Shown here: positions 32,332 to 34,036 of the stretch, one piece after another
How positions within the stretch are numbered: position 1 is the stretch's first letter
Layout: each line of letters begins with the position of its first letter
DNA from: Pseudomonas putida
GTDB taxonomy: Bacteria > Pseudomonadota > Gammaproteobacteria > Pseudomonadales > Pseudomonadaceae
Assembly: GCF_005080685.1 (NCBI RefSeq)
Contig: NZ_CP039371.1
Location: 1,426,001-1,490,000 of the forward strand
DNA length: 64,000 nucleotides
Reading direction: 5' to 3'
Position numbers and translations under genes: made by a program
Notes under the pieces: generated by a model
What the model was told of the DNA's origin: nothing
What the model saw: only the letters and a program-made list of their open reading frames with translations
Databases searched by the model: none

Positions 32332-32796
32332 ATGGCAAGGCGTTTGGCAGCAGTATTGGCCATCACCGCGAGCCTGTTGCTCGGTGGTTGCGGTGCCGAC
32401 TACGGCGTGGACCAGCACGGCAACACGGTAAAGGCCGAACAGATCGACGGGCACTGGCTGGTGCTCAACTACTGGGCGGAATGGTGCGGCCCGTGCCGGA
32501 CCGAAATTCCCGAACTGAACACCGCAGCCAAGCAGTGGGAGGGGCAGGGCATCAAGGTGGTGGGGGTGAACTTCGATGGCTTGCAGGGCCAGGACCTGAA
32601 ACAGGCTGCCGACACCCTGGGCATCGGCTTCACCGTGCTCGCCCAGGACCCGGCCGAGCGCTACGACCTGCCGCGCAGCGAGGCGCTGCCGGTGACCTAC
32701 ATCATCGATGACAAGGGCAAGGTGCGTGAGCAACTGATGGGCGAGCAGACCCTGGAAGGGCTGCAGGCGAAGATCAAGGCACTCAAAGGCGCCTGA
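32332..32796 (+). CDS. TlpA-like thioredoxin-fold lipoprotein
   Basis: A 154-residue protein with a lipoprotein signal ending SLLLGGC (Cys20). A thioredoxin-like domain follows with the redox motif WCGPC (residues 51–55) and the cis-proline loop LPVTYIID. It acts outside the inner membrane as a disulfide reductase; the partner is unknown. Its stop is 23 bases from the stop of the convergent ubiquitin gene. Confidence 0.88.
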   Translation: MARRLAAVLAITASLLLGGCGADYGVDQHGNTVKAEQIDGHWLVLNYWAEWCGPCRTEIPELNTAAKQWEGQGIKVVGVNFDGLQGQDLKQAADTLGIGFTVLAQDPAERYDLPRSEALPVTYIIDDKGKVREQLMGEQTLEGLQAKIKALKGA

Positions 32797-32819
32797 TCTC
32801 GTGGGCCTGAGGGATTGGA

Positions 32820-33050
32820 CTAACCTCCGCGCAGCCTCAGTACCAACTCAAGAGTCGACTCTCTCTGAATGTTGTAATCAAAGAGAGTCCTTCCATCTTC
32901 AAGCTGCTTATCAGCATAAATGAGCCGCTGCTGATCTGGCGGAATGCCTTCTTGGTCCTCGATTTTCGCCTTGACGTCCTCAACCTTGTCACCAGGCTCG
33001 ACTTCAACTGTGAAGGTCTTACCGGTGAGTGTCGACACGAAGATCTTCAT
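32820..33050 (-). CDS. Ubiquitin (eukaryote-type, 76 residues, mature C-terminus)
   Basis: A complete ubiquitin, from [13 protein letters not shown] through [20 protein letters not shown] to LRLRGG followed directly by TAG. My residue-by-residue alignment to human ubiquitin gives 61 of 76 identities and no gaps. Kept: Leu8, Ile44 and Val70 of the binding patch, Lys11, 27, 29 and 48, Arg42, Arg72, and the C-terminal Gly-Gly, already exposed without processing. Changed: Lys6 to Ser, Lys33 to Gln, Lys63 to Arg, His68 to Glu; new Lys at 2 and 22. AGGTG lies 7 bases before the ATG. The gene has 115 G+C in 231 bases (49.8%) and uses AGG, AGA and GGA codons, unlike its neighbours. It lies 147 bases downstream of the META-domain gene on the same strand. 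No conjugation enzymes or peptidases are in the window. Horizontal gain from a eukaryote is the likely origin; function is unknown. Confidence 0.95.
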
Positions 33051-33197
33051 GTCAGTGCACCTATCGATGAATGAGCAACAACTATCAACCTGCTGTTGCT
33101 CTCCAGCAACTGGCAAAACTGTCAGGTATTCCTTGGCTTGATCGCGGTGTCAGCCCATTGCCGAGCTTGCATGATCGGCCACGTTCAAGCGAGCGGC

Positions 33198-33602
33198 TCA
33201 GCCTTCCTCAGGCCAGAACCGCAACGGCTTGCCCTCGGCCGGCCAGAAACGCAGCTGCTCGACTGGCGACACATCCCAGCGCTGCACCGTCTCCAACGCC
33301 TGGAGGAAGCGCGCTTCCTGTTCCATCAACGCTGGGGCGCAGAGCTTGCGGGTCTTGCCGACCTTGCCGAAGCTCAGGTGCTCGCCGTCCAGGGTGTAGG
33401 GCGCGAACCAGTGGTTGCAGCCGGCATTGCCGTACGCCCGGCCATCGCTGGCCAAGGTCAGGGTCAGGTGGCTGTAGTCGATCAACGGCCGTTCGCCGAT
33501 CCACTCCAGCACATAGCTGCGCTCCTGCTGCAGCTTGGAGGGTTCAGCCGCGCAGCCTAGCAGGCCGGTGGCGATCAGCACGCCGGTCAGCACATTCTTC
33601 AC
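33198..33602 (-). CDS. META-domain lipoprotein
   Basis: A 134-residue protein starting at a GTG with AGGAG 8 bases upstream. The signal ends TGLLGC (Cys17). The mature part has the META/HslJ-like pattern: WIGERPLIDYSHLTLTL and AYGNAGCNHWFAPYT, then a late MEQEARFLQAL helix. Such proteins are envelope-stress or heat-related lipoproteins. It overlaps the upstream gene by 4 bases. The 147 bases between it and the ubiquitin gene contain no other feature I recognise. Confidence 0.82.
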   Translation of the reverse strand: MKNVLTGVLIATGLLGCAAEPSKLQQERSYVLEWIGERPLIDYSHLTLTLASDGRAYGNAGCNHWFAPYTLDGEHLSFGKVGKTRKLCAPALMEQEARFLQALETVQRWDVSPVEQLRFWPAEGKPLRFWPEEG

Positions 33603-34036
33603 TCGGCGCTCTCCTGGCAACGCGGGCATAGGTGCTTCTCGCCCTGGCTGGCCCAGCCCAGTTCGGCGATGCGTGCGGTCGCGGCCGGCTGGCGGGCTTT
33701 TTTCCCGAGCTTGGCGTCGACGGCGAACTCGAAGTCCAGCAGCGCCTCGCAGCGGTCACAGGCGACCTGCCAGTTGAGGATCTCCAGTTCGTTGAACACA
33801 GGGCCCGTGGCCACGGCGACCCACTGACCGCGTGGGTTGATCAGGTGGCGCACGCTTTCCACGGTCAGGCGCATGGCCAGGTCCTTGCTGCCCTTGAGGG
33901 TGACCAGCAGGACGTCGCCCTTGTGCATCGAGCCGCCATTGCCGGTGACCTGGTAGCGGCCCGGCACCAGTGCACGGCACTCGATCAGGGTGTGTTGCGG
34001 GTTGAAGAGGGTGTAACGGAAATCGTGCTCGACCAT
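33599..34036 (-). CDS. Conserved hypothetical protein with paired CxxC motifs
   Basis: A 145-residue soluble protein. Residues 1–90 are beta-rich (SMHKGDVLLVTLKG). The C-terminal part has CDRC and, near the end, CPRC, a plausible zinc ribbon. No family name is recognised. It is coupled to the META gene by a 4-base overlap and follows ldhA on the same strand after 31 bases. Confidence 0.65.
   Translation of the reverse strand: MVEHDFRYTLFNPQHTLIECRALVPGRYQVTGNGGSMHKGDVLLVTLKGSKDLAMRLTVESVRHLINPRGQWVAVATGPVFNELEILNWQVACDRCEALLDFEFAVDAKLGKKARQPAATARIAELGWASQGEKHLCPRCQESAE

Follow-up and report, generated by a model that had tools for sequence, protein, structure and literature searches.

Ubiquitin is regarded as a eukaryotic hallmark. 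The one well-studied bacterial ubiquitin is BfUbb of Bacteroides fragilis, which is described as a secreted, growth-inhibiting protein without the terminal glycines (PMC5705921, PMC3352274), as an agent of antagonism within its own species (PMC5705921), and as having a peptidyl-prolyl isomerase as its target (PMC12396204). Bacterial conjugation loci (E1-E2-JAB, Bil, CBASS) form a second point of comparison, their modifiers having a Gly-Gly tail and their operons carrying E1, E2 or JAB genes beside the modifier. The type in row 6a of PMC1779556, which combines a triple-module gene with a metallo-beta-lactamase, is described without a ubiquitin-like gene.

Here we analyse a ubiquitin gene in a 64,000-nucleotide stretch of the Pseudomonas putida chromosome (the window). 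With BfUbb (PMC3352274, PMC5705921), the nearest case that has been studied, it shares its arrangement as a stand-alone gene within an insert of low G+C, a near-complete product of eukaryote type and horizontal acquisition (likely so for the P. putida gene). However, BfUbb is described there as having a signal sequence and as missing two terminal glycines, whereas the P. putida protein is leaderless and keeps both; identity to human ubiquitin is given as 63% for BfUbb, compared with 80% for the P. putida protein; and antagonism has been demonstrated for BfUbb only. As neither the signal sequence nor the glycine loss of BfUbb is present in the P. putida protein, we do not class the gene as a BfUbb-type toxin. 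Its Gly-Gly tail resembles those of the conjugation loci, and one E2-E1-JAB locus does occur in the genome, but the ubiquitin gene itself has no E1, E2 or JAB gene beside it as their operons do. A bacterial ubiquitin is a known kind of protein; what is new is the leaderless and tail-complete form, which contrasts with the exported and tail-less BfUbb. Because Pseudomonas can be grown and edited, this form permits a direct test of free ubiquitin in a cytosol without eukaryotic machinery.

The gene and its insertion site

The ubiquitin gene lies in the spacer of a tlpA-like/META gene pair, with the following features (positions in the window):

32332..32796, plus strand: TlpA/AhpC-TSA thioredoxin-like lipoprotein-type gene, left flank, convergent with the ubiquitin gene (PF00578, E 6.4e-24)
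32792..33197, no strand: about 400 bp without match in related tlpA/META loci, containing the ubiquitin gene together with some 147 bp of upstream sequence (from alignments)
33198..33629, minus strand: META-domain gene, right flank, on the same strand as the ubiquitin gene and upstream of it (PF03724, E 2.8e-25)
32820..33050, minus strand: ubiquitin gene of 76 codons, ending LRLRGG-stop (from the sequence)
33058..33062, minus strand: ribosome-binding site AGGTG, 7 nt 5' of the ATG (from the sequence)

The gene runs from an ATG at 33050-33048 to a TAG at 32822-32820, and its product is identical to human ubiquitin at 61 of 76 residues (80%) without gaps. The AGGTG motif can base-pair with the 16S rRNA 3' end. 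An intact 76-codon gene with its own ribosome site, a terminal LRLRGG and 61 of 76 identities had been reported by the sequence-only reading, and all of these points hold, the strand being minus. The product is a full-length member of the ubiquitin family PF00240, beyond chance (E 2e-29; 101.6 bits, the cut-off being 25.4; residues 3-74 on profile positions 1-72 of 72), it has the 76 residues and the free C-terminal LRLRGG of ubiquitin proper, and its predicted fold is a beta-grasp like that of 1ubq. A longer in-frame reading of 98 aa exists from a TTG only; the 22 residues that it adds N-terminally fail a crude hydrophobicity rule for signal peptides, and by that rule the protein has no leader. 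A consensus scan of 32700-33400 returned no sigma-70-type promoter. Misassembly or contamination is unlikely to lie behind the gene, given that it sits on a contig of 6,495,886 bases between Pseudomonas genes, that its identity to eukaryotic ubiquitin is 80% and not close to 100%, and that it is the sole match in its own genome.

The same locus in related species bears out the view of an insert: the tlpA-like and META genes adjoin each other in all six best-matching relatives (G025, G024, G007, G009, G015 and G003), and none of these six has a ubiquitin match. Alignments to them end at 32786-32798 and restart at 33190-33198, leaving an unmatched stretch between the two genes of 391-411 bp in P. 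putida, as against 33-157 bp in the relatives. The G+C content of the ubiquitin gene is 50% (58% at third positions), compared with 65% for the window and 84-87% at third positions in the genes on either side. The ubiquitin gene is thus a single-gene insertion of foreign composition, likely acquired from outside, since it interrupts an otherwise conserved gene pair and is low in G+C. A search for mobile-element repeats on either side of the insert gave nothing convincing. In the corresponding spacer of relatives (L118, L119, L121) there are palindromic repeat-like sequences that, on our own reading, are perhaps Pseudomonas repetitive extragenic elements, and such elements perhaps mark the tlpA-like/META spacer as an insertion site.

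Beside the ubiquitin gene there is no E1, E2 or protease gene, the flanks being the TlpA-like and META genes, and no secretion gene is present among the flanking genes. When the neighbours of eleven non-exported ubiquitin loci, that of P. putida included, were compared all against all, no partner gene common to the P. putida locus and other loci appeared among the matches listed, save common regulators.

Ubiquitins in Pseudomonas and other bacteria

The sequence-only reading had cited a single Bacteroides case as the known bacterial ubiquitin, which proved too narrow. Among 398 Pseudomonas genomes, 15 (P. putida included) have a ubiquitin-domain match at E <= 0.001, a limit at which distant relatives are missed. 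The corresponding counts, each again including the P. putida genome, are 9/194 for relatives of mixed kinship, 2/369 for the class and 1/398 for the phylum, and with that genome excluded the genus is enriched relative to both class (Fisher p 0.001) and phylum (p 0.0001). A wider scan of 84,980 species genomes gave at least 440 confirmed related loci in prokaryotic records, some of which are likely eukaryotic contamination in metagenome bins; 80 loci were kept.

Four of the 15 Pseudomonas proteins (G241, G262, G092 and G399) are exported forms with a signal peptide followed by ubiquitin, and both of those scanned for further domains (G092 and G241) proved to carry one of autotransporter type. 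By reading, seven copies are intact and stand-alone (P. putida, G201, G303, G444, G018, G458 and G413), a count that leaves aside the exported four, a weak match of 28% identity (G085), the clearly broken copies G033 and G016, and G105, which is embedded in a 152-aa frame. Stand-alone, leaderless copies of this class repeatedly stop at residue 73, without the RGG required for conjugation: this is the case in five of the seven, namely G201, G444, G018, G458 and G413 (L031, L033, L013, L034 and L035), although in G413 the ATG lies within a longer open frame and the ubiquitin could belong to a larger protein. Gly-Gly is kept in the two others, as LRLRGG in P. putida and as RLKGG-L in P. arsenicoxydans (G303); besides the latter, a 91% identical metagenome protein ends RLKGG. 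H68 is kept in two of the seven, as against 87 of the 94 other rows of the comparison set. One genomic site is common to G018, G444 and G458, and another to G303, G033 and G105. We also note a 152-aa Pseudomonas ORF (L016:11348-11806) with a diverged C-terminal ubiquitin domain and an N-terminal part without Pfam match.

Close counterparts are the leaderless proteins of the P. cichorii group and P. arsenicoxydans (G018, G444, G303; P0122, P0126, P0136, P0138, P0233), which are entered in databases as 'ubiquitin-like protein'. Like the P. putida gene, they are stand-alone, leaderless, low in G+C and single-gene insertions, and they belong to the same genus. Unlike it, they occupy other genomic sites and encode proteins 49-56% identical to that of P. 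putida; moreover, the P. cichorii-type proteins stop at residue 73, whereas the P. putida protein is full-length.

Across bacteria, ubiquitin domains recur mostly behind a signal peptide and are sometimes surface-anchored. By a crude rule, a signal-peptide-like stretch directly precedes the ubiquitin Met in 56 of the 80 kept loci (54 with an AxA-like end), and the rule is passed by 9 of the 10 kept loci not labelled as MAG or uncultured. Among the loci sampled, the exported form is thus the common bacterial form, the leaderless form being a Pseudomonas speciality; some non-leader loci, such as L046 with its tandem ubiquitins, are probably eukaryotic contamination. Ubiquitin domains directly after signal peptides were seen in many phyla (L036-L115, e.g. 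L012:8542-9855, L028:8370-9620, L083:5824-7431 and L101:5914-7461). Domain scans of nine proteins found autotransporter domains in L012, L028 and L083, S-layer domains in L101 and SdrD-type repeats in L052, which suggests that ubiquitin may be displayed on the bacterial surface, in some cases anchored through autotransporter or S-layer domains. In Dyella sp. OK004 (L039), a leader is followed by a complete 76-residue ubiquitin, with Gly-Gly and then a stop. The domains of the exported proteins (L012 and L028 of Pseudomonas, L039 of Dyella, L101 of Cohnella) are up to 80% identical to the P. putida protein, but they directly follow a signal peptide and are frequently joined to parts of autotransporter, S-layer or SdrD type, whereas the P. 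putida protein is leaderless. The literature searched held no description of this pattern of leadered ubiquitins and a leaderless Pseudomonas class ending at residue 73. Two further Dyella loci (L087, L097) are bacterial ubiquitins that also stop at residue 73, without the RGG.

Signs of selection and possible functions

The P. putida protein differs from human ubiquitin by Q2K, K6S, I13F, L15V, S20G, T22K, I23V, N25D, Q31E, K33Q, F45Y, G47D, S57F, K63R and H68E. At the core positions, changes are solely to other hydrophobic residues. In the usual ubiquitin binding patch (L8, I44, H68, V70), L8, I44 and V70 are kept, while position 68 is E and the neighbouring position 47 is D, and in both of these the P. 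putida protein stands alone in the comparison set. R42, R72 and LRLRGG are all retained. Fifteen random replacements were simulated 4000 times, and a mean BLOSUM62 score at or above the observed 0.67 was reached in 0.6% of the runs (simulated mean -0.42). An unchanged tail (29%), the absence of radical core change (27%) and the absence of a stop (45%) are each not significant alone, and the three occur jointly in 3.3% of simulations. Since the replacements are more conservative than random, the fold of the P. putida ubiquitin would appear to have been under selection at some time, possibly before transfer.

Constraint is also indicated in the P. cichorii-type members of the leaderless class, the following values being from these genes and not from that of P. 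putida. Between the leaderless orthologues of G018 and G444, dN/dS is 0.34, as against 0.02-0.06 for three neighbouring genes, with changes at 11 of 50 synonymous and 17 of 193 non-synonymous sites (Fisher p 0.02, on rounded counts); in the comparison with G458, synonymous sites are saturated. The P. cichorii sequences P0122, P0126, P0136 and P0138 all stop at the same residue. Judging by these sequences, the leaderless Pseudomonas class evolves fast and yet under constraint.

The explanation that we tentatively favour is an acquired, leaderless, full-length ubiquitin that acts non-covalently inside its cell. A foreign ubiquitin would have entered the tlpA-like/META spacer as a single-gene insertion, its product would be, as modelled, a folded cytosolic ubiquitin, and this would bind a bacterial protein non-covalently instead of being conjugated, a peptidyl-prolyl isomerase being a candidate target by analogy with BfUbb. 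The conservative replacements, together with the open P. cichorii-group orthologues and their dN/dS, argue for a fold kept by selection, and a non-covalent mode is suggested by the stand-alone copies that end at residue 73 without a conjugation tail, by the presence of G47D and H68E at the binding patch, and by BfUbb, which is described as acting without terminal glycines. However, the P. putida protein keeps its whole tail, though a binder needs none; BfUbb is exported whereas the P. putida protein is leaderless, so that the analogy would come without a route; and the two broken copies, G033 and G016, look like what would be expected under weak selection. The missing promoter match also counts against a non-covalent role, tail retention is not significant alone, and the constraint may date from before the transfer. 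Several of these points would suit a drifting passenger instead, a foreign gene that has landed in the spacer and is functionless but so far undecayed. Such a passenger would fit the patchy distribution of ubiquitin in the genus, at differing sites, the broken and embedded copies, the missing promoter match, and the fact that the tail, core and stop measures are each compatible with neutrality; we consider it somewhat less likely than a non-covalent role, given replacements more conservative than in all but 0.6% of simulations, a correctly spaced ribosome site and purifying selection on the P. cichorii-group copies.

A released or injected weapon, leaving the cell by lysis or type VI secretion and inhibiting rival bacteria or disturbing amoebae or other predators, is less probable still. 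The antagonism within species reported for BfUbb (PMC5705921) and the fast evolution of P. cichorii-group ubiquitin relative to its neighbours are in keeping with it, as is the type VI sheath gene VipB, found in 11 of 11 Pseudomonas genomes with non-exported ubiquitin and at its nearest about 41 kb from the P. putida gene, although this count tells little as it covers ubiquitin-carrying genomes alone. Against a weapon stand the lack of a signal peptide by the crude rule and of a flanking secretion gene. A type III effector is rejected for this genome, which has four secretin matches but none over the TIGR02516 cut-off (passed in only 6 of the 11 related genomes) and no hrp-box-like site, allowing up to two substitutions, within 600 bp upstream of the ubiquitin gene; the suggestion of the sequence-only reading that the protein acts on host pathways consequently finds no backing from a type III route. 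As for conjugation, a ThiF search of the P. putida genome gave four matches, three of them over the cut-off, and one of the matches belongs to the following locus:

L175:5854-10371 (own genome C1, about 5.08 Mb): triple-module gene of E2-E1-JAB type, with a metallo-beta-lactamase-like gene on either side

The 751-aa product of the triple-module gene has Prok-E2_A, ThiF and Prok-JAB domains. PADLOC names one of the two genes beside it PDC-M48B, and the island that carries them also includes genes for an integrase, RelE and an HTH protein. This is a locus of the row 6a type of PMC1779556, a type set out there without a ubiquitin-like gene; the scanned neighbours of the triple-module gene, too, hold no ubiquitin-fold match. 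A conjugated modifier, with this resident protein using the ubiquitin encoded 3.6 Mb away, would further agree with the retention of R42, R72 and LRLRGG. We nonetheless regard it as improbable: full-length triple-module relatives occur in 4 of the 398 Pseudomonas genomes, three of which are without ubiquitin, so that the overlap with the 15 ubiquitin genomes is P. putida alone and a link by co-occurrence is not significant (Fisher p 0.14), and the integrase and RelE genes suggest that the island travels on its own. A search for eukaryotic-type E2 gave no matches, but as its control likewise matched in 0/14 genomes, this does not show absence. That ubiquitination has been rebuilt in a bacterium, a captured Gly-Gly ubiquitin being activated and attached by the resident defence-type E2-E1-JAB enzyme, strikes us as highly improbable.

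Donor and origin

The nearest matches to the P. putida protein are eukaryotic ubiquitins and one exported bacterial ubiquitin, which tie at 61/76 each. In a tree of 64 of the rows at hand and 76 columns, few inner branches (4 of 61) are well supported, and the P. putida sequence, on a long branch (0.32) and in no supported set, is not tied to any donor. Horizontal acquisition, as the sequence-only reading had it, is in keeping with the foreign-looking insert, its low G+C and the empty sites in relatives; a eukaryotic donor, given the tie and the poorly supported tree, goes no further than plausible.

Phages and plasmids were considered as sources and rejected, since 50,697 phage records gave no match and the three matches in plasmid records (Ruminococcus albus at 69% and two from Pseudoalteromonas) include none near identical. 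Contigs of a viral collection gave 21 loci; several look eukaryotic or are exported, and none exceeds 76% identity. One such contig, viral by the label of the collection, encodes at L147:4001-4228 a signal peptide, after which comes a full 76-residue ubiquitin with Gly-Gly at its end.
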